Source of the DNA: Muscardinus avellanarius
Taxonomy: Eukaryota; Chordata; Mammalia; Rodentia; Gliridae
Assembly: GCA_963383645.1 (NCBI GenBank)
Contig: OY726558.1
Coordinates: forward strand, 179,023,134-179,087,133
Direction: 5' to 3'
Length of the DNA: 64,000 nucleotides
The position numbers were made by a program, and so were the translations under genes. Within the stretch, counting starts at the first letter, position 1. The number at the start of each line of letters is the position of its first letter. This document shows positions 10,325 to 64,000 of this stretch, piece by piece. Under the pieces are notes generated by a model. That model saw nothing but the letters and a program-made list of their open reading frames with translations, was not told the origin of the DNA and made no database searches.

Positions 10325-10338
10325 AAGAATAAGCACAA
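10325..10338. repeat. Left target-site duplication of the ORF1-only L1
   Basis: AAGAATAAGCACAA here is repeated exactly at 13115-13128, on the far side of the element's A-rich tail. This pair defines the insertion boundaries. Confidence 0.9.
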
Positions 10339-11129
10339 AGCTTCCGGGAAGATGGCGACCGAGAAAAGCGGGGCTTAAGAGCCCCACTAACAACCAATCT
10401 CCATTACCACAAAATCAGCGCCTTTCATAGCCAGAAAACACCATCACCAGAGAAACAAAAAAATCACCAGGCTCCAGAGAGAAAGCGGTCTGAGAACAGA
10501 GTTGAGAGCCACAGAGGAGATACACCGGCCTCACGCCCAAGGACTCGGCAGCAGCGCCATATTGCCGGTCGCAGCGGCGAATTCACCAGATGGCTACAGC
10601 AAGCCGAGGAGAGACGCTGTGGAACAGCCAGGTGGGATTTTTCAGCACAGGGAACATCTAAAGCTCCCAGTGGCTGAGCTCAGCACACGCTGCAAGGACT
10701 CAAAGCGGAATTCAAAACCAAGAAGAAATAAGCCAGCCTCACGGCCAAGGGCGTAGCAGCGGCGCCATATTGCCACTGGCGGCAGCAGCAAAAAATTCAA
10801 TGAGTCCAATACAGCTACATCTGCAAACTCAAGAACAGTGAGTCAAATTGCGGGCCACAGAGGAGAAATCCCAGTACTGTACTTCCTGGGACTTGACCCA
10901 GTGGGGGAGTGTGGTGGCAGAGATATCACACCATAGGAGAACGTGCAACCTGGCACACCCCACAGTCTAAAGCAGCCTCTATCGACTCCCTGGGTTGGAG
11001 ACTCTGTGATACAACCCAGTAAAGGAGTAGTGGGGTCTGAGATACTACAGACTCGAGATTCAGAGCACCTTAAGTGAAGTCATAGTGACTCAAGGGAAGA
11101 ACCCAGAGAAGGCACAAACTTCCGAAATC
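10339..11129 (+). promoter_or_regulatory. L1 5'UTR with predicted internal promoter
   Basis: The first bases contain GAAGATGGCGACC, which holds the YY1-type core (AAGATGGC) that positions transcription at base +1 in L1 elements. Two related segments, about 10527-10585 and about 10733-10790, both contain a CCTCACG(C/G)CCAAGG block and GCGCCATATTGCC. They lie about 206 bp apart and look like degenerate tandem promoter units. Confidence 0.75.
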
Positions 11130-12047
11130 ATGGGAAAGAGGAATAACAATGGAGCAATAAATGCCCACAACCCCACAACATCAGAACCCGATAAAACAGA
11201 AAATCAGAGATTTCTAGAAGATCAAATCAGGAAAATAACTCTAGAAATTATAGAGGTGCTTCGAAAAGAACTCAGAGAGAGCCAAAAAGAGATAAAGGAT
11301 GCAATTAATGAAGTAAAGGCCTCAATTCAAAGCACAAACAACCAATTAGACCACATGGAGAACAGAATCTTGCTTTTAGAAGATGATCATTCCAAAAATG
11401 AATGCATAGTTTCTAATCAAGAAAAAAATATCCAACAGCAGGAATCTGACATTGAAGAAATATGGGCCCATTTTAAGAGAGCTAACCTAAGAATAATTGG
11501 AATAGAGGAGGGAAAAGAAAGTGATACCAAAGGGCTCAACAATCTCTTCAAGGAAGTAATAGCAGAAAATTTTCCAAACATAGAGCAAGAGGCTGATACA
11601 AAGATCCAGGAAACTTATAGAACTCCCCTTAGACAGGATCGGAGAAGAGGATCCCCACGCCACATAATTGTCAAAATGACCAATGTGGAAGCCAAGCAGA
11701 GAATCTTAAAGGCAACAAAAGCAAAGGGCCAAGTGACATTCAGAGGCAAACCAATTCGAATCACTCCAGACTTCCCAAACCAAGTCATGAGAGCCAGAAG
11801 GGCTTGGAGTAACATATTCCAAACTCTGAAAGAAAACAACTTCCAGCCAAAAATTTCCTACCCAGCAAAACTTTCTATCAAATTAGATGGAGAAATAAGA
11901 AGCTTCCATGACAAACAGAAACTGAAGGAATTTATGTCTTCAAAACCAGCGCTAGAGAAAATACTCAAAGAGATTAACTGCAAAGAAGAAATAGGTAACA
12001 CATACCAGAACCAAACAAACAAGATTTTCCATCCAACAGACAACTAA
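11130..12047 (+). CDS. ORF1: L1 ORF1 protein (RNA-binding chaperone), intact
   Basis: L1 ORF1p coats L1 RNA as a trimer in cytoplasmic ribonucleoprotein particles and acts as a nucleic-acid chaperone in retrotransposition. The frame is open for 305 codons from the first ATG (11130, start MGKRNNN) to TAA. An upstream in-frame GTG extension to 11085 is not needed. Residues about 27-112 are charged and heptad-like, fitting the coiled coil. The RRM begins at NLRIIGI (119-125, RNP2-like) and runs to about 200, including ENFPN (146-150) and TPRQ-type arginines near 165-173. The C-terminal domain (about 203-282) includes GKPIRITPDF, RARRAW and NFQPKISYPAKLS. The last 20 or so residues extend beyond the usual end. 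Human ORF1p is 338 residues, so this one is slightly short, mainly before the coiled coil. No stop or frameshift is seen, implying recent insertion or selection. ORF2 does not follow. The family call is secure; activity is untested. Confidence 0.93.
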   Translation: MGKRNNNGAINAHNPTTSEPDKTENQRFLEDQIRKITLEIIEVLRKELRESQKEIKDAINEVKASIQSTNNQLDHMENRILLLEDDHSKNECIVSNQEKNIQQQESDIEEIWAHFKRANLRIIGIEEGKESDTKGLNNLFKEVIAENFPNIEQEADTKIQETYRTPLRQDRRRGSPRHIIVKMTNVEAKQRILKATKAKGQVTFRGKPIRITPDFPNQVMRARRAWSNIFQTLKENNFQPKISYPAKLSIKLDGEIRSFHDKQKLKEFMSSKPALEKILKEINCKEEIGNTYQNQTNKIFHPTDN

Positions 12048-12089
12048 GATTGGTTATCTGTGGAGATTCATTTTTTATGCTAGTCTTTT

Positions 12090-12945
12090 ACCTATCTCTA
12101 AATTGTATTGTTTGCCTTTATTGTTGTTAATTTTTAGGATTTCTAGTTGGAATATTAATATACCTTCAGATATAGCATTTGGAAATATTTTATCCCATTC
12201 TATCAGTAACTTTTAACTCTGTTTATATTGTCTTTGGATATACAATTTTTTTTTTTTTTTAGGGAGTTTGTATACTCTTCTGTTGCCTGTGCCATTGAAA
12301 TCATATCCAAGAAATTACTGCCAATTTCGATGTTGTGAGGTTTTATGACCCAGATTTTCTTCTAAAAGTTTATAGTCTTAAGATTTATATTTAGGTCTTT
12401 TATCTATTTTGAGTTAATACTTGTATATTGGATTAGTTAAGGGTACAATTTTATTCTTTTCCATGTAATTATTATTTTTCAACAATAGTTAGTTAAAAGA
12501 TTATTATTTCCACCACCAAATGTTCGTGGAAACCTTGTCAAAAATAACTTGTTAATAAAGGGAAGAATTTAGCTCTGGCTGGTATTTAACTCCAATGGTT
12601 TATATATCTGCCTTTAGAACAGTACTACACTGTTTCAATTATTGTAGCTTTATATGGTTTGAAATCAGAAAATATATATCTTCTAGCTTTGTTCTTTTTC
12701 AAGATCGTTTTGGGTATCTAGAATCCATATTCCATATTAGGATAGATTTTTTTCTGAAAAATAAATATATAAATATATGATAGTTTCACCTAAAAAATAG
12801 AAAAAAATATTATCTGGTAAGAAAGAAAGCAAAAAGAAATATTAAAATGTTATCTTTAAGTCATCAAAAGCTTGGTATTAGACAAATGAAACTGTTATGT
12901 GAGATTATCATTTTTAATTTTGGATAAATTGCTATAATACTAGAT
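12090..12945 (-). mobile_element. Foreign insert in the L1, with old antisense L1 ORF2/3' fragment
   Basis: Between about 12130 and 12730 the plus strand reads as the reverse complement of a mammal-wide L1 ORF2 region: GGAAATATTTTATCCCATTC, CTGTTGCCTGTGCCATTGAA, TCATATCCAAGAAATTACTG, GTTCTTTTTCAAGATCGTTT. The rest (about 12730-12945) is AT-rich and unrecognised. This much older sequence sits inside the target-site duplications of a young element, so it was carried in with it or exchanged into it. Confidence 0.75.
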
Positions 12946-13139
12946 GTCAACCACTAAGCCAAGCATGGGAAGGAGGGATGGGGACGGAATGGGGTGGGGA
13001 TCGGGTGGGTGATGACTGGGCGATGTGTGCATGTATGTCTACAAAAGTTTGTATCCCACTATGATGTATGAATACAGTGCACCAATAAAAAAATAAATAA
13101 AAAAAGAATAAAAAAAGAATAAGCACAAGTTTTTGTGAT

Positions 13140-18151: not shown

Positions 18152-18709
18152 TTATTTTATTTTTTATTTACTTTTAATATATTTTTATTGGTGCATTATA
18201 GTCAAACATCTCAATGGAATACAAAACTTGTGAGGATATACAAGCACACAGCACCCAATTAGCACACCAATAAAGCACACTTTATCCAATCCTCATCCTA
18301 TTCCCTCTCCCTCCCTCTATCCCATGCTTGATTTAGTGACTGACTTTGACATATTTGTTTAAGTAAGTACATCACGTGATTTAAAAAGATTCTGTCTTCC
18401 TCCCTCTCATTCCCTCTGATAGGTCACCTTAATTGCTCCTCCATATGGCCCTTTCTTCAACTAGATTTCCTCCTATTACCCATTTCTTCCTAGTTTTTGC
18501 ATATTGGGGAAAGCATCTGATTTTTTTATTTCCTGTGATATTTCCCTGTGGATACCGCATTGCAGGCTCTGATCCCATTCTCAAAGGCCCCAGCACCGGC
18601 CTTGCCTCATGGCAGGCTCCAATCCCTGCCTCACTGGCTCCAGCACTGGACTAAAGCCTCATGGCAGGCTCCAATCCTGGCCTCAGAGGCCCCAGCACCA
18701 GCCATGCCT
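18152..18709 (-). mobile_element. 5'-truncated copy of the VNTR-L1 composite retroposon
   Basis: Antisense L1 3'UTR (TATTGGTGCATTATAGTCAA to about 18530) is joined through the stretch GTGATATTTCCCTGTGGATA to about 2.5 VNTR subunits. These include AAGGCCCCAGCACCGGCCTT and CCTCACTGGCTCCAGCACTG, and they alternate in the same A/B order as the large element at 33323-38108. The copy stops inside the VNTR, as expected of 5' truncation during reverse transcription. It is more diverged than the large copy, so the family has been active over some time. No clean target-site duplication is visible. Confidence 0.85.
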
Positions 18710-33308: not shown

Positions 33309-33322
33309 AGAAAAGCACTTTT
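33309..33322. repeat. Left target-site duplication of the composite retroposon
   Basis: AGAAAAGCACTTTT, repeated exactly at 38109-38122. The plus-strand sequence at the right copy is CACTTTT/AATTTTC, so the inferred first nick falls at TTTT/AA, the preferred L1 endonuclease target. Confidence 0.95.
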
Positions 33323-33734
33323 TTTTTTTTTTAATTAATTTATTTTTTAAATTGGTGCATTGTAGTCATATATCAATCACATTGGAGTACAAGACTTGAG
33401 AGGATATACAAGCACACATCATCCAATTAGCCCTCCTGCGGCCCCCGTCCCATTCCCTCCCCCTCCCTCCATCCCACACTTCTTTGGTGATTTACTTTGA
33501 TACATTTGTTTATGTACCTCCTGCATTTTAAAGAGGCTCCGTCCTCCAGTATTACATACCCTCTGATTGGTCACATTAGTTGCTTCACTATAGGGCCCTT
33601 TCTATAGCTCAACCTCTTCCTGTTGCCCGTTTCCTCCTAGTTATTGCTGATTAAGGGAAGCGTCTGATTTATATTTTCTGCGATATTTCTCTGTGCATGC
33701 TGCGTTGCAAGTACCAATCCCACTCTTGATGGTC
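33323..33734 (-). mobile_element. L1 3'UTR-derived tail of the composite retroposon
   Basis: Antisense L1 end: AAATTGGTGCATTGTAGTCA, CATCATCCAATTAGCCCTCC, CCCATTCCCTCCCCCTCCCT. It stays colinear with the other L1 3'UTRs in the window up to about GAAGCGTCTGATTTATATTT (about 33660-33680). It then leaves L1 and enters a short bridge (GATATTTCTCTGTGCATGCT) into the VNTR. The same departure point is seen in the copy at 18152-18709. Confidence 0.9.
33339..33344 (-). promoter_or_regulatory. Poly(A) signal of the composite retroposon
   Basis: TTTATT on the plus strand reads AATAAA in the element's sense. It lies a few bases upstream of the A-tail. Confidence 0.65.
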
Positions 33735-36419
33735 CCAGTAGTGCCCTGGCTACTCAGTGGACTGATCCAGACCTCGCTGGCTCACGCAGCGGCCTTGCCT
33801 CATGGGAGGACCCAGTTCTGGTCTCGCTGGCCCCTGAACCGGTCAAACCCCTAAGCTGGCTTTTGTCCCGACCTTGGAGGCCGCAGGAGTGAACTTGCCT
33901 CACGCCAGGCTCCGATGCTGGCCATTGGCCCCTGCACCAGTCTAACCCCTTGGCAGGATTCCAGTCCCGGCCTCGGAGGCCCCGACACTGGTAATGCCTC
34001 ACGGCAGGCTCCGATGCCGGCCTCACTGGCCCCAGCACCGGCCTAACCCCTCGGCAGGCTCTTATCCTGGCCTCGAGGCCCCAGTACCGGCCTTGCCTCA
34101 AGGCAGGCTCCGATGCCGGCCTCGCTGGCCCCAGCACCAGCCTAACCCCTCAGCAGGCTCTTATCCTGGCCTCGGAGGCCCCAGTACCGGCCTTGCCTCA
34201 CGGCAGGCTCCGATGCCGGCCTCACTTGCCCCAGCAGTGGCCTAACCCCTCGGCAGGCTCCGATCCCGGCCTCAGAGGCCCCAGTACCGGCCTTGCCTCA
34301 AGGCAGGCTCCGATGCCGGCCTCGCTGGCCCCAGCACCGGCCTAAACCCTCGGCAGGCTCTTGTCCTGGCCTCGGAGGCCCCAGTACCGGCCTTGCCTCA
34401 CGGCAGGCTCCGATGCCGGCCTCGCTGGCCCCAGCAGCGGCCTAACCCCTCGGCCGGCTCCGATCCCGGCCTCGGAGGCCCCAGCACTGGTCATGTCTCA
34501 AGGCAGGCTCTGATGCCGGCCTCGCTGGCCCCAGCACCGGCCTAACCCCTTGGCAGACTCTTATCCTGGCCTCGGAGGCCCCAGTACCGGCCTTGCCTCA
34601 CGGCAGGCTCCGATGCCGGCCTCGCTGGCCCCAGCACCGGCCTAACCCCTCGGCAGGCTCTTATCCTGGCCTAGAGGCCCCAGTACCGGCCTTGCCTCAC
34701 GGCAGGCTCCGATGCCGGCCTCACTGGCCCCAGCAGCGGCCTAACCCCTCGGCAGGCTCTGATCCCGGCCTCAGAGGCCCCAGTACCGGCCTTGCCTCAC
34801 GGCAGGCTCCGATGCTGGCCTCGCTGGCCCCAGCAGCGGCCTAACCCCTCGGCAGGCTCCGATCCCGGCCTCGGAGGCCCCAGCACTGGTCATGCCTCAA
34901 GGCAGGCTCCGATGCCGGCCTCGCTGGCCCCAGCACCGGCCTAACCCCTTGGCAGACTCTTATCCTGGCCTCGGAGGCCCCAGTACCGGCCTTGCCTCAC
35001 GGCAGGCTCCGATGCCGGCCTCGCTGGCCCCAGCACCGGCCTAACCCCGCGGCATGCTCCGATCCCGGCCTCGGAGGCCCCAGCACTGGTCATGCCTCAC
35101 GGCAGGCTCCGCTGCCGGCCTCGTTGGCCCCAGCAGCGGCCTAACCCCTCGGCAAGCTCTTATCCTGGCCTCGGAGGCCCCAGTACCGGCCTTGCCTCAC
35201 GGCAGGCTCCGATGCCGGCCTCGCTGGCCCCAGCACCGGCCTAACCCCTCAGCAGGCTCTTATCCTGGCCTCGGAGGCCCCAGTACCGGCCTTGCCTCAC
35301 GGCAGGCTCCGATGCCGGCCTCACTGGCCCCAGCACCGGCCTAACCCCTTGGCAGGCTCCGATCCCGGCCTCAGAGGCCCCAGTACCGGCCTTGCCTCAA
35401 GGCAGGCTCCGATGCCGGCCTCGCTGGCCCCAGCACCGGCCTAACCCCTCGGCAGGCTCTTATCCTGGCCTCGGAGGCCCCAGTACCGGCCTTGCCTCAC
35501 GGCAGGCTCCGATGCCGGCCTCGCTGGCCCCAGCAGCGGCCTAACCCCTTGGCAGGCTCCGATCCCGGCCTCAGAGGCCCCAATACCGGCCTTGCCTCAC
35601 GGCAGGCTCCGATGCCGGCCTCGCTGGCCCCAGCAGCGGCCTAACCCCTCGGCAGGCTCCGATCCCGGCCTCAGCGGCCCCAGCACTGGTCATGCCTCAC
35701 GGCAGGCTCCGATGCCGGCCTCGCTGGCCCCAGCACCGGCCTAACCCCTCGGCAAGCTCTTGTCCTGGCCTCGGAGGCCCCAGTACCGGCCTTGCCTCAA
35801 GGCAGGCTCCGATGCCGGCCTCACTGGCCCCAGCAGCGGCCTAACCCCTCGGCAGGCTCCGATCCCGGCCTCGGAGGCCCCAGCACTGGTCATGCCTCAA
35901 GGCAGGCTCCAATGCCGGCCTCGCTGGCCCCAGCACCGGCCTAATCCCTCAGCAGGCTCTTATCCTGGCCTCGGAGGCCCCAGCACCGGCCTAACCCCTC
36001 GGCAGGCTCTTATCCTGGCCTCGGAGGCCCAAGTACCGGCCTTGCCTCATGGCAGGCTCTGATGCCAGCCTCGCTGGCCCCAGCACCGGCCTAACCCCTC
36101 AGCAGGCTCCGGTCCCGTCCTCGGGGGCCCCAACACTGGCCTTGCCTCACGGCAGGCTCCGATGCCGGCCTCGCTGACCCCAGCACCGGCCTAACCCCTC
36201 AGCAAGTTCCGGACCCGACCTCGGAGGCCCTAGCACAAGCTTTGCATCATGGCAGGCTCCAATGCCGGCCTCGCTGGCCCCAGCATCGGTCTAACCCCTC
36301 TGCAGGTTCCAATCCCGGCCACGGAGGCCTCAGTAGTGGCCTTGCCTCACAGCAAGCTCAGATGTCGGCCACTGGCCCCAGCGCCCGCCTAACCCCTCAG
36401 CAGGTTCCGATCACTGTCT
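33735..36419 (-). repeat. VNTR: 100-bp dimer array (two 50-bp subunits)
   Basis: On the plus strand, subunit A runs CCTCGGAGGCCCCAGTACCG ... CCGATGCCGG and subunit B runs CCTCGCTGGCCCCAGCACCG ... TTATCCTGG. Each is about 50 bp and they alternate, so landmarks such as CTCGCTGGCC recur at 34321, 34421, 34521, 34621. Each subunit contains GGCCTCnnnGGCC, half of them a perfect palindrome (GGCCTCGGAGGCC). Both edges are degenerate while the centre is very homogeneous, as in unequal exchange. Because 100 leaves remainder 1 on division by 3, the reading frame rotates every unit. The proline/arginine-rich frames here are therefore not genes. Confidence 0.95.
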
Positions 36420-36904
36420 CTGTGGTTATTATTTCAAAGGTTCCAGTTGTAATGTATCAGATCTCTGCCTCCCCCGAATATTGGCCACTGGCATTGTCAC
36501 TGCCTCCACCGTTTCAAATCCTTCCCAGGCTCTTTTTCCACTCTGAAAGTTGTCCAGTGTTCCTAAGCATGCGTGATGGTAGCATTCGACATTTAGTGTA
36601 ATTTCTCCAAAAAAATAAAGTTGGTAAGATCCGGTTTCTGCTTCTCCTGAATACAAGTCTCCACCACCATCGCGAAGAACTCTTTCAACACCGCATTTCT
36701 CCTTGGTCTCCGCTAAGCTCTCTCCTTATATGTGATGTCTGAGATTCTTAACAATATAGAGAAATAGCAGTCCTCTTTCACGGCGAATTTTTCCATAAGT
36801 TCCAGTGCATTTAGATAAGTTTTGTCTGCATCTCCAGTGTCCTGGCATCCATAACGGCTTTCTTACCACCTCTCCGATATTTTTCTTTATCTTTTTCTGT
36901 TCTG
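36420..36904 (-). other. Linker of the composite retroposon, origin unknown
   Basis: About 480 bp of normal-complexity, non-repetitive sequence between the VNTR and the monomers. A 75-codon minus-strand frame (36429-36656) begins MYSGEAETGSYQ, but no family is recognised. The linker does not resemble the L1 5'UTR or ORF1 seen at 10339-12047. It may come from a host transcript or an unknown element. Confidence 0.6.
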
Positions 36905-38108
36905 AGCCCGGTTTCTCCAGGGGTCTGGCGTGCTACTCGCAGTTCGGCTGGGACCCAGAGTCCCGCGACCCGGGCCCCATCTGGCATGCCCAGCCCGCGA
37001 CCCCCGCCCAGAACCCAGCGTCTTACTGGGTCCGGTTTCTCCAGGGGTCTGGCGTGCTACGCGCAGTTCGGCAGGGGCCCAGAGTCCCGCGACCCGGGCC
37101 CCATCTGGCGTGCCCAGCCCGCGACCCCCGCCCAGAACCCAGCGTCTTACTGGGTCCGGTTTCTCCAGGGGTCTGGCGTGCTATGCGCAGTTCGGCAGGG
37201 GCCCAGAGTCCCGCGACCCGGGCCCCATCTGGCGTGCCCAGCCCGCGACCCCCGCCCAGAACCCAGCGTCTTACTGGGTCCGGTTTCTCCAGGGGTCTGG
37301 CGTGCTACGCGCAGTTCGGCAGGGGCCCAGAGTCCCGCGACCCGGGCCCCATTAGGCGTGCCCCGCCCGCGACCCCCACCCAGAACCCAGCGTCTTACTG
37401 GGCCTGGTTTCTCCAGGGGTCTGGCGTGCTACGCGCAGTTCGGCCCGGGGCCCAGGGTCCCGCGACCCAGGCCCCGGCTTTTGTGCGCCGCGCGCAACCC
37501 CTGCCCAGAACCCAGCGTCTTACTGGGCCTGGTTTCTCCAGGGGTCTGGCGTGCTACGCGCAGTTCTGCCTGGGGCCCAGAGTCCCGCGACCCGGGCCCC
37601 ATCTGGCGTGCCCAGCCCGCGACCCCTGCCCAGAACCCAGCGTCTTACTGGGTCTGGTTTCTCCAGGGGTCTGGCGTGCTACGCGCAGTTCGGCAGGGGC
37701 CCAGAGTCCCGCGACCCGGGCCCCATTAGGCGTGCCCCGCCCGCGACCCCCACCCAGAACCCAGCGTCTTACTGGGCCTGGTTTCTCCAGGGGTCTGGCG
37801 TGCTACGCGCAGTTCGGCCCGGGGCCCAGGGTCCCGCGACCCAGGCCCCGGCTTTTGTGCGCCGTGCGCAACCCCTGCCCAGAACCCAGCGTCTTACTGG
37901 GCCTGGTTTCTCCAGGGGTCTGGCGTGCTACGCGCAGTTCTGCCTGGGGCCCAGAGTCCCGCGACCCGGGCCCCATCTGGCGTGCCCAGCCCGCGACCCC
38001 TGCCCAGAACCCAGCGTCTTACTGGGTCTGGTTTCTCCAGGGGTCTGGTGTGCTACGCGCAGTTCGGCAGGGGCCCAGAGTCCCGCGACCCGGGCCCCAT
38101 CTGGCGTC
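36905..38108 (-). promoter_or_regulatory. Tandem 124/125-bp GC-rich monomers, candidate promoter
   Basis: The landmark GTTTCTCCAG starts units at 36911, 37035, 37159, 37283, 37407, 37532, 37657, 37781, 37906 and 38031; the last unit is cut at 38108. In the element's sense each unit is CpG-rich, and several contain the GC-box GGGCGGGGGTCGCGGG. Three unit types (starts 37283/37407/37532) recur in order at 37657/37781/37906, a 374-bp higher-order repeat. Tandem 5' monomers ending in a partial unit recall the promoter monomers of mouse L1, though the sequence is unrelated. Promoter function is inferred. Confidence 0.8.
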
Positions 38109-38122
38109 AGAAAAGCACTTTT
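38109..38122. repeat. Right target-site duplication of the composite retroposon
   Basis: Exact copy of 33309-33322, directly beyond the partial first monomer. Confidence 0.95.
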
Positions 38123-38244: not shown

Positions 38245-38251
<7 letters not shown>

Positions 38252-38275
<24 letters not shown>

Positions 38276-38457
38276 GTGGTACTGGGGTTTCTGGAAGCCC
38301 TTCTACCTCCGGGCTACACTCCCAGACCTATTTTTACATTTTTATTTGGAAACAGGGTCTCCTAAGCCAGCGTGCGCGGCTGGTTTCGAATCTGCGCGAT
38401 CCTCCTGTCTCTGCCTCCCAAGCGTAGGGATTACAAGCGTGCGCCACCACGTCCGGC
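38252..38457 (-). mobile_element. Young B1-dID SINE, antisense, with TSD
   Basis: A long T-run, then a full antisense dimer rich in CpG. Exact duplications TCAGTTTTTAATTT lie at 38238-38251 and 38458-38471. Confidence 0.96.
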
Positions 38458-38639
38458 TCAGTTTTTAATTTAAAGTGTTAAAATGCTTCTTATTTGTGCA
38501 TTTTGAAGACTATTTTATGATAATAAAATGCACTGATTTTAATATTATTTTGTCTCAGATAATAGGGAGTCATGGCCAGATAGAGATGGAGAAATGACTA
38601 GGCAGTGGAGGAGTCAGGACAAAACATCTGTTGATTAAG

Positions 38640-51369: not shown

Positions 51370-52258
51370 TTATTTTTTATAAAATTGTAATGGGATAAAA
51401 GACTTGTGGAGACATACATGCACACACCACCCAATTAGCCCTTACCAGATACTCTCCCCATTGCCCCCCATCCCTCTTACCCATGCTTGGCTTACTGATT
51501 GACTTTGATATGTATGGTTAAGTATATCAATGTGCTTTAGAGAGCTTCCCTCTTCCCCCCTCTTATCCCCTGTAAGGTCACCTTATTTGCTCATCTTTAG
51601 ATTCTCCTTCCTCATCTAGAGTTCCTCGTTATCCATTTCTCCCTAGCTATCATGTATTAGGGAAAACATCTGATTTCTTCATTTTTGTGACTTACTAATC
51701 TCACTTAGTATAATGTCTTCCAGTTCCATCCATTTCCCTGTCAATGATGTAATTGTGTATTTTTTTATGGCTGAGTAAAATTCCATTTATCCCACAGTTT
51801 TGTAATCCATTTATCTGTTGATGGACATCTTGGTGGTTCCATAGTTTGGCAGTGGTGAATTGTGCAGCTATGAACATAGATACGCATATATTATTTGGTA
51901 GTTTGGTTTCCTTTCTTTTGGGTAGATACCCAGAAGTGGTATTGCTGGGTCAAATGGTAAATTTGTTTCCATTCTTCTGAGGATCCTCCATACTGTTTCC
52001 CAAAGTGGTTGCACTAATTTGCAGTCCCACCAACAGTCTTTTAGAGTTCCCACTTCTCCTCATTCTTGCCAGCATTTGTTGTTGTTTGTGTTTTGAATGA
52101 TTGTCATTATAATTGAAGTTAGGTGAAATCTCAGAGTAGTTTTGATTTGCATTTCTCTGATTGCCAGTGATGTTGAGCATTTTTACATGCATTTATTGGC
52201 CATTTGAATTTCTTCTTTCATGAAGTGTCTGTGTAATTCATTCTCCCATTTTTTGATT
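51370..52258 (-). mobile_element. L1 3' end, inverted part of a twin-primed insertion
   Basis: An antisense L1 3'UTR begins AATGGGATAAAAGACTTGTG and continues into ORF2. The reverse strand encodes the L1 C-terminal signature CKLVQPLWETVWRILRRME and AIPLLGIYPKERKPN (51868-52053). The inner end abuts a sense-oriented L1 terminus. Confidence 0.92.
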
Positions 52259-52375
52259 GGGTTATTTGGGTAAGGGCTAATTGGGTGATTTGTGCATGTT
52301 TGTCTACACAAGTCTTTTATCCCATTAAGATGTATGACTACAATGCACCAATAAAAATTTAAACAAATAAAATAA
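52259..52375 (+). mobile_element. L1 3' terminus, non-inverted part of the same insertion
   Basis: GTAAGGGCTAATTGGGTGAT to ACTACAATGCACCAATAAAA plus an A-rich tail. It overlaps by about 60 bp (GGGCTAATTGGGTG ... CTTTTATCCCATTA) with the sequence present in opposite orientation at 51390-51455. Confidence 0.9.
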
Positions 52376-52979
52376 TAAGATGACGTATATCATGTGATGG
52401 CATTTTTGTAAAAAATAAAAGAGTGGTGCTATAATTCAGTGGTAAATTTCAAGTATCCAATATCCTAGGTAATGGATAAAAGTAGTTGTAAATACCAGCT
52501 ATATTCAGCTGACATGTTACGAAAAGGAGAACTCTATTTGTCTTTAATTCTTATTTTGTTTTAAATATGTTTGTATGTTTGTGACTATATAGCTATTGCA
52601 TATTCTTCTTTCATATTTTTAACATGCAATATAAATATATTTATATTATACTAAATTTATATCAAAGTTTTAGTATTACTAATTTTATGTCTTTATTTAA
52701 ATTATAAGCCATAAGAAGAGTTATATAATTCAAAAACTTTACTTTCTCTTTGAGAAAAGGTTGAAGTAGCATATAAAAGCAATATAGTTCTATCATTCTA
52801 GATATAATTTCTTATAAAGAATATTTATTTTTTCTTTGGAGTATATAAAATATATATTTGAATACAAGAATTTAAGATAAATAAGTAGTAAAATTTTGAA
52901 ACTAAAGGCTTCCAATTCTTTTTAAAAACCCATTATATTTACTAAGATGAACTTACTTTTATTGTCCTATTACATGTTA
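52376..52979. other. AT-rich intergenic sequence, nothing recognised
   Basis: No feature seen. Confidence 0.5.
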
Positions 52980-61875: not shown

Positions 61876-62285
61876 AGTGCTGGGGACTGAATTTAGAGGC
61901 GTTATACATATAAGATACACTCCCAGCCCTATTTTATTTAAAAAAAAATTGTGTGTGTGGTACTGGGGTTCCTGGAAGCCCTTCTACCTCCGGGCTACAC
62001 TCCCAGATACATTTTATACTTAAAAAAAATTATTATTCGGAAACAGGGTCTCTTAAGCCAGCGTGGCTGTGTTCGAATCTATGCGATCCTCCTGTCTCCG
62101 CCTCCCAAGCACGGGGATTACAAGCATGCGACACCACCCCCAACATATTTTTTTAAATTTTAAAACAAGGTCTTACAAGGTTGAGAGGGCCTAATTAAGT
62201 TGCTGATACTGGGCATTAACTTAAGATCCTCCTATTTCACCCTCTCAAGTATTATGATTACAAGCATGGCCACTATGCAAGGCTT
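61874..62285 (-). mobile_element. Old B1-dID-type SINE split by a younger one
   Basis: The ID part of an antisense copy (GTGCTGGGGACTGAATTTAG to TACACTCCCAGCCCTATTTT) lies left of 61950. Its B1 part (AAACAAGGTCTTACAAGGTT to GATTACAAGCATGGCCACTA) lies right of 62147. The younger SINE occupies the middle. Confidence 0.82.
61951..62146 (-). mobile_element. Young B1-dID SINE nested in an older SINE
   Basis: Full antisense dimer (GGTACTGGGGTTCCTGGAAG to GCATGCGACACCACCCCCAA). The A/T-rich edges TTTAAAAAAAAATT and TTTTTTTAAATTT suggest the target duplication. Confidence 0.9.
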
Positions 62286-62289
62286 CTAT

Positions 62290-64000
62290 TTTTTTTATTT
62301 TTATATCGAACATATTGAAAATGGCATACATTTAGACTATGCTTGGTGCCCTCCACCCAGTTTCTCTCCCCCCTCCCAACAATGAGTATACAGGTTAACC
62401 ATGTTATATCCATACTCTTACACATATTCAGGTGTAGCTCCTCCATTAATCAACCTCAGCCTTATTCCTTTCCTATCCTTCCATTCTAGCTTTGCTGAGA
62501 TCTCTCTTCATTATCTGGAGTCCCTCTGGTATCCCTAATATTACAAAGTTAGGCATATTAGTAAACAACTTATGTCCCTTCTCTTTCTGTGCTTGACTGA
62601 TTTCACTTAACCTAATGTTCTCTAGGTCTTTCCATCTTCTTGCAAATGACATGATTTTGTTCTTCTTTATAGATGAGTAGAATTCAATCGTGTGTATTTC
62701 CCATAATTTTGCAATCATTCATCTGTTTTATTTTATTTTATTTAGGGTTTGGGGATGGAACCTAGGGGCATTCGACCTCTGAGCTATACCCCCTGCCCTA
62801 TTTTTCATTCTTTATTTTGAAAGTAGGTCTCACTGACTTAAAGAGGGCCTTAACTAAGTAGCTGAGGCTGTCCACAATCCATGATCCTCTGGGCTCAGCG
62901 TTCCAAATGCTGTGATTAAAGCATGTGTCATCATGTCCGGCTTCCATTCATCTGTTGATGGAGACCTAGGCTGGTTCCATATTTTGGCTATTACAAATTG
63001 TGCTGCTATGAACATGGGTATGCATATGTTACTGTAGTTCTCCGATTTCAACCTCTTTGGACATATACCCAGGAGTGGTATAGCCGGATTATGGTAGATC
63101 TATTCCCAGTTTTCTAAGGAATCTACACACTGATCTCCATATTAGCTGTACTAGTATGCACTCCCACCAACAGTGTAAAAGAGTTCCTCTTTCCCCACAT
63201 CCTTGCCAGCATTTGTTGTTATTTGATTTTTTTTATGCTTGCCACTCTGATTGGGGCTAGATGTAATTCAGTGTAATTTCAAATTGCATCTCCCTGATGG
63301 CTAATGATATTGAACATCTTTTCAGGTATCTATTGGCCCTTTATATCTCTTCTTCTGTGAAATGTCTATCCAGTTAGTTGCCTATTTCTTGATAGGTTAT
63401 TTGTTTTGCTAGTGTAGAGTCTTTTGAGCTCTTTGAATATGCTGGATATTAGCCCTCTATCAGAGTGATGGCTGCAAAGATCTTCTCCCATTTTGTATGC
63501 TTTTTCTTTAGGTTCTTGGTGGTTTCTTTGATGAGAAGAAACTTTTTAGTTTGATGCCATCCACTTGTTAATTCTTGCTTTAATTTCCTGTGCTTTGGAG
63601 GTCTTGTTAAGAAAGTTACTGCCTGTGCCTATATGTTGTAGAGTTGAGCCTATGCCCTCCTCTAATAACTTCACAATCTCTGGTCTAATTTCTAAGTCTT
63701 TAATGCATCTCAAGTTGATCCAGCGCATGGTGAGAGGTAAGGATTTAGTTTCATATTTCCACATATGGATAACCAGTTCTCCCATCATCATTTGTTGTTT
63801 TTAAGATTCTTTCCTTGGCCTCTATCTTGGTCATTTTGATTATTACACAGAATGGGGAGGGATTTCTTTGATCTTTCCTTAATTGTGTTCTGTATGTTTG
63901 GAAAATTCTCTGAAATTATTTCTCTAAAGAGATTACAAATGACCTTGGTCCTTACCTCTATTCCTTCCTCAATGCCTTTTATTCATAAGTTAGGACATTT
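62290..64000 (-). mobile_element. L1 3'UTR and ORF2, antisense, continuing past the window
   Basis: The reverse strand encodes ORF2 C-terminal sequence: KLWEIHTIEFYSSIKKNKIM and LSEISQAQKEKGHKLF (62473-62718), then FLNKTSKAQEIKARINKWMA (63546-63791). Several frameshifts make it inactive. A SINE interrupts it at 62728-62944, and the 5' part lies beyond the window edge. Confidence 0.92.
62728..62944 (-). mobile_element. B1-dID-type SINE inside L1, with TSD
   Basis: ATTTT-rich tail, ID block (GGATGGAACCTAGGGGCATT) and B1 block. Exact duplications CATTCATCTGTT lie at 62716-62727 and 62945-62956, and both derive from the ORF2 'CATTCATCTGTTGATGG' stretch. Confidence 0.93.

Follow-up and report, generated by a model that had tools for sequence, protein, structure and literature searches.

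The stretch analysed here, a 64,000-nucleotide segment of the Muscardinus avellanarius genome (the window), carries at positions 33309-38122 an insertion of ~4.8 kb whose sense strand is the minus strand. We consider it very probable that this locus is a member of a recently amplified family of non-coding composite retrotransposons built around a variable number of tandem repeats (VNTR), the RNA of which is likely copied by L1 proteins in trans. Its four modules occur in the same order at dispersed places, with a VNTR of variable length, distinct target duplications, poly(A) tracts, 5' truncation and, in one case, a daughter copy carrying the 3' flank of its parent.

The insertion is bounded by 14-bp direct repeats, AAAAGTGCTTTTCT in the sense orientation, and comparison of the 5' target-site duplication (38109-38122) with the 3' one (33309-33322) gave 14 identical positions out of 14. 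As a control for chance, 2,000 pairs of 51-bp stretches were drawn at random from the window; 3 of these pairs had a 14-bp word in common. The insertion site is TT/AAAA. Read in the sense direction, all on the minus strand, a 5' array of GC-rich 124-bp monomers is followed by a linker of about 0.5 kb, a VNTR of 50-bp units, a 0.37-kb L1-derived tail and poly(A). The monomer array, a putative promoter, was delimited at 36910-38108 with Tandem Repeats Finder (TRF) and by means of copies elsewhere; TRF reports a period of 124 bp in 9.6 copies (36910-38107), and a higher-order period of 374 bp is present. The linker lies at 36413-36909. The VNTR (33709-36412; TRF and unit analysis) consists of units of ~70% GC that alternate as 100-bp pairs, its core (33790-36192) having 24 copies of a 100-bp period (2 x 50 bp) and being flanked at both edges by degenerate units. 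A 29-mer at 33680-33708 spans the joint between VNTR and L1, which is itself placed to within some bases. The tail (33333-33699), recognized through L1 alignments, contains the last ~20 codons of open reading frame (ORF) 2 and a 3' untranslated region (UTR) with a G-rich tract and AATAAA, and the poly(A), read directly from the sequence, occupies 33319-33332, its final four A possibly being part of the duplication. A preliminary description of this DNA had reported a single insertion with perfect 14-bp duplications that contains monomers, linker, VNTR, AATAAA and poly(A), and every one of these elements was found.

The longest methionine-initiated ORF on the sense strand of the insertion has 58 amino acids. 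The possibility that the linker encodes a known protein domain was rejected, as its 98-amino-acid open frame gave no Pfam match, and one VNTR frame and one monomer frame had no protein homologues at E 0.001. Rfam (curated cut-offs) and tRNA scans of the sequence were equally negative, and words from the VNTR and from the linker each occurred 0 times in viral contigs.

Copies were searched for in one 2.497-Gb assembly, the one containing the window. The 29-mer of the joint is present exactly in 1,279 + 1,305 = 2,584 copies and, with up to three mismatches, in 4,406 + 4,391 = 8,797 copies, and a 31-mer of the linker (36672-36702) is present exactly in 407 + 364 = 771 copies; the reversed controls gave 0 in all three cases. 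The genome-wide count called for in the preliminary description therefore reveals many copies, and the locus is not unique in the genome. Queries with the tail, the linker and the monomers returned 1,208, 1,152 and 927 first-look candidates, respectively, 40 of which were scored for each query; the 40 tail places and the 40 linker places were 99-100% identical to the window copy. Linkage between modules was measured on positions 1-86.29 Mb of sequence C1, an unselected region for which the lists of linkers and joints are complete. For 25 of the 33 linkers an exact joint followed on the same strand at most 10 kb downstream, at distances of 1.6-7.5 kb, compared with 0 of 33 for joints upstream and 0 of 33 for joints on the other strand. 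When three of the eight linkers lacking a paired joint were read onward, all three entered the VNTR. Conversely, an exact linker was found upstream of 26 of the 100 joints, and joints without a linker are expected if many copies are 5'-truncated.

To compare individual insertions, 14 copies including that of the window were assembled from the 40 scored tail places (the first 11 and three others for which sufficient sequence was available). All 11 copies that reach the linker contain the four modules in the order monomers-linker-VNTR-tail. Two of the remaining three begin within the VNTR, and the sequence read of the third, with a VNTR of more than 7 kb, stops short of the 5' end; a composite of this kind, whose VNTR exceeds 7 kb before the 5' end is reached, lies at about 137.77 Mb of G000:C6 (L017 with L040). 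The VNTR measures 2.1-4.9 kb among the 11 four-module copies, and the gap between linker and tail differs from the 2,750 bp of the window copy by a multiple of 50 (± 5 bp) in 13 of 14 pairs of the scored lists, the exception being a pair with a gap of 6,383 bp. Among the 13 copies with a 5' end, nine have exact target duplications of 12-20 bp, all different; of the other four, two have 9 bp, one (the C8 copy) has an A-rich duplication, (A)10CCTAGA, recognized by eye, and one has none. Together with the poly(A) and with the 5' truncation inside the VNTR seen in 2 of the 13, these duplications are features of L1-type retroposition, and they bear out the preliminary view of a mobile element with L1-type insertion hallmarks.

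Evidence for an RNA intermediate comes from two copies designated C1 and C8. Over 8,516 bp the two are 99.88% identical, in a match that runs from ~0.3 kb inside the C1 monomers, through the C1 poly(A) and into ~2.1 kb of the C1 3' flank. The match stops at that flank's own poly(A), after which the C8 duplication follows, and the 5' flanks differ. C1 and C8 differ by six substitutions within the element, by 3 bases in poly(A) and by a single change at the far edge. This arrangement amounts to a 3' transduction of C1 flank sequence into C8, for which DNA duplication offers no ready explanation, and points to C8 being a daughter of C1 produced by recent copying through RNA; the evidence for 3' transduction consists of this one pair, no search for further pairs having been made. 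In addition, when the C1 flanks are joined at a single duplication they match, across the site, an uninterrupted repeat in the window, a HAL1-like element, the only gaps in this match lying ~90 bp beyond the C1 insertion site. The same empty-site match was obtained with six of six loci of that repeat, the window copy being one of the six. As tandem arrays are prone to recombination and the C1 and C8 copies have 8.5 kb in common, spread by segmental duplication or as an interspersed satellite, instead of through RNA, was also considered. This explanation was rejected as extremely improbable: the copies have different flanks with private duplications, C1 and C8 share a flank solely on the 3' side, where it stops at a poly(A) and a new duplication, and the empty-site match speaks against it as well. 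Descent of the modules from one segmental duplication, raised in the preliminary description, fails on the same flanks, duplications and parent-daughter pair. That description had also proposed a recent event from clean duplications and intact CpGs, in agreement with the identity of C8 to C1 and with a CpG observed/expected ratio of 0.65 for the element versus 0.19 for the rest of the window. It should also be noted that the HAL1-like host element of the C1 copy (L018; G000:C1, about 184.17 Mb) has an extra stretch of ~1 kb resembling an L1 5' UTR in its 3' part, and that this stretch was carried along from C1 to C8.

Alignments of the tail with an old L1 copy in the window and with the ORF2 termini of the L1 loci L056 and L058 place the start of the composite's L1 part ~20 codons short of the end of ORF2, from where it continues through the 3' UTR; what had been called an L1 3' UTR-like tail is thus derived from L1 but is slightly more than a 3' UTR. 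In the old L1 of the window and in L056, L057 and L058, ORF2 passes into the 3' UTR without a VNTR, and the VNTR is therefore foreign to these L1s. That it might be a normal part of an L1 3' UTR was rejected, since none was present in the L1 at 51.4-52.4 kb, in two 3' ends of one lineage or in three of another. Two L1 lineages with open ORF2 were sampled. Open frames of 1,279 codons account for 29 of 150 scored L1 ORF2 matches (from 97,483 first-look candidates), and a second lineage has frames of 1,278 codons, in 2 of 150 scored rows. The 3' end of this second lineage, read at three loci whose sequences each stop before its end, is of the tail type, with BLAST pieces of only 28-60 bp at 80-93% identity and an alignable ORF2 end, suggesting that the tail likely descends from this second kind of L1. 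The window also holds two L1 types as old copies, at 51396-52400 and 62000-64000 (minus strand). Their 3' ends are unrelated: that of one is like the composite tail, and the second resembles, by eye, that of the intact L1 sampled more often.

An alternative relationship to L1 is that the composite is an L1 that has lost its ORFs, either HAL1-like or a spliced derivative: monomers and linker would be the 5' UTR of another L1 subfamily, in which ORF1 and most of ORF2 were lost or spliced out and a VNTR was gained. The tail is indeed L1 from the end of ORF2 onward, the monomer arrays resemble, from what is known of mouse L1, its 5' UTR arrays, and a family of ORF-reduced L1s is present in the same genome. 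We nevertheless judge this origin quite improbable. The single 5' part read of the more often sampled lineage (2.1 kb, L055) had no BLAST match to the composite, whether monomers or linker; nor did monomers and linker match six HAL1-like loci with their 5' UTRs. Moreover, the VNTR follows the linker in 25 of 33 unselected cases and in each of the three read among the other eight. The pieces read of both open-ORF2 lineages, which for the second stop short of the 5' end, likewise contain no monomers, linker or VNTR.

The fusion of VNTR and tail is older than the present burst. An older 5'-truncated relative, overlooked in the preliminary description, was detected by BLAST and alignment at 18156-18709 (minus strand); it contains VNTR units, the same joint and the L1 tail, and is ~70% identical. 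A query with this copy yielded 7,107 first-look candidates, and in all 39 other places scored, the best of these 7,107, both VNTR and tail were spanned at 80-86% identity. The VNTR-tail fusion is thus old, as judged from these alignments, and the four-module form is young.

Several observations weigh against our reading of the locus as a copy of a composite family mobilized by L1. Mobilization in trans and promoter activity are predictions from sequence. The assembled copies were drawn from the best tail matches and are biased towards young copies. A duplication is missing from one truncated copy and measures only 9 bp in two copies, a shared word of at least 9 bp arising in 38 of 2,000 random pairs, and the old copy at 18156-18709 has no clear target duplication, the best shared word being 8 bp. 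Linkers are fewer than joints (771 versus 2,584), which fits 5' truncation and could also reflect a linker-less subfamily. Of six monomer arrays elsewhere that were followed downstream for ~0.45 kb, three reach the linker and three are still monomers at the end of the read, and monomers outside the composite may exist. Finally, the more often sampled intact L1 (two 3' ends read) has a 3' end unrelated to the composite tail. For this last reason, the preliminary proposal, which combined L1 dependence with an L1 3' end serving for recognition, is supported only in its first part, to which the L1-type hallmarks conform; that the tail serves in recognition is no more than possible. The attribution to squirrels is that description's own. 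Either of the two lineages with open ORF2 may be the acting L1. Mammalian L1 needs poly(A) more than a set 3' UTR, and the tail may be a relic, in which case poly(A) may suffice.

The proposed route of amplification would start from the CpG-rich monomer array acting as an RNA polymerase II promoter, like the monomers contained in mouse L1 5' UTRs, which serve as promoter. The RNA would end at the AATAAA of the tail or, by read-through, at a later signal; the L1 ORF2 protein would nick sites of the TT/AAAA type and prime on the poly(A), and the VNTR would change in length by multiples of the 50-bp unit.

The known VNTR composites SVA, LAVA, PVA and FVA are described, in the part of PMC4432496 drawn on here, as specific to hominoid primates and as having a CT-hexamer/Alu-like 5' part in common. 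The dormouse composite resembles SVA in being non-coding, with a tandem 5' part, a central GC-rich VNTR of 30-50-bp units and variable length, and, to judge by its insertion hallmarks, L1-type mobilization (PMC4432496 and PMC5753468, same restriction); its own 50-bp units, ~70% GC and 2.1-4.9 kb in 11 copies conform to this VNTR type. Unlike SVA, it has no CCCTCT hexamer array ((CCCTCT)2 occurs 0 times on either strand), its 5' part consists of 124-bp monomers, a linker precedes the VNTR, and its 3' end derives from L1 and not, as in SVA, from HERV-K10. The composite therefore appears to work like SVA but, as the CT-hexamer array is absent, is not a member of it on this feature. By BLAST against the rest of the window, the element had only L1-tail and VNTR matches and none to the SINEs (short interspersed elements) of the window; no Alu sequence was aligned. 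LAVA, PVA and FVA are likewise VNTR composites, and the 3' part of LAVA also holds an L1 fragment (L1ME); they differ in sharing the hexamer/Alu-like 5' region and the VNTR with SVA (PMC4432496, as above). In the present composite, by contrast, the VNTR abuts the L1 part, with the junction close to where ORF2 ends. HAL1s, which according to the cited part of PMC5753468 arose several times in mammals, are also non-autonomous and contain L1 sequence, but they encode ORF1p, whereas the composite encodes neither L1 protein. With respect to autonomous L1, it lacks ORF1 and ORF2 and retains just ~20 ORF2 codons' worth before the 3' UTR. We thus have a VNTR composite family without ORFs, whose construction differs from that of SVA and LAVA.

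With thousands of copies, a repeat-finder would detect the family, perhaps as split pieces, and squirrel or dormouse repeat libraries could already contain it as a named entry. We think this somewhat unlikely, as a search of titles and abstract openings shows no such repeat, a result that covers the literature and not repeat databases; the same search, mostly without subscription journals, returned no VNTR composite outside hominoids. On balance, we favour a second, independent origin of SVA-type composites outside the apes, in which a rodent put together promoter-like monomers, a linker, a minisatellite of 50 bp and the end of an L1 from a second lineage, with an old inherited VNTR-tail fusion and a current burst in which daughter and parent differ by less than 0.1%. 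If so, this would be a case of convergence, in which a GC-rich array, a VNTR and poly(A) make up a general recipe for parasitizing L1. A family assembled outside apes from separate parts would be an independent replicate of the VNTR composites that PMC4432496, in its part cited here, describes from hominoids. Features common to both origins would then likely be L1 requirements, and those that differ likely accidents. Further assets of the family are copies of very recent age, a pair of parent and daughter, and GC-rich arrays whose length varies and which could influence genes nearby. A review lists, in the portion consulted, ground squirrel among mammals with quiet LINEs (long interspersed elements) and/or SINEs (PMC5857283); the genome studied here is not of this sort, or was not when the composite copies arose. 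It combines two L1 lineages with at least two kinds of non-autonomous partners.

Another such partner is represented in the window at 10325-13128 (plus strand) by a HAL1-like element with ORF1 only, flanked by 14-bp duplications (AAGAATAAGCACAA). It consists of an L1 5' UTR, an open ORF1 (11130-12047; PF02994, PF17490), ~0.9 kb of further sequence and an L1 3' end, and this layout recurs in all six loci read, the window's included, which were picked by ORF1. In the five other loci the identity is 97.3-97.8% for ORF1 and just 92.7-94.4% for the 5' UTR, a contrast that would fit selection on ORF1, in a set of loci chosen by that ORF. The ~0.9 kb after ORF1 resembles, by eye, the 3' UTR of the open-ORF2 L1 lineage of L056, L057 and L058 (open ORF2 of 1,278 codons at L056 and L057 and of 1,200 at L058), and the HAL1-like family probably arose from that lineage by loss of ORF2. 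Suggestive of a squirrel or dormouse are the SINEs at 38250-38480 (minus strand) and at other places, which resemble a B1-tRNA/ID fusion.

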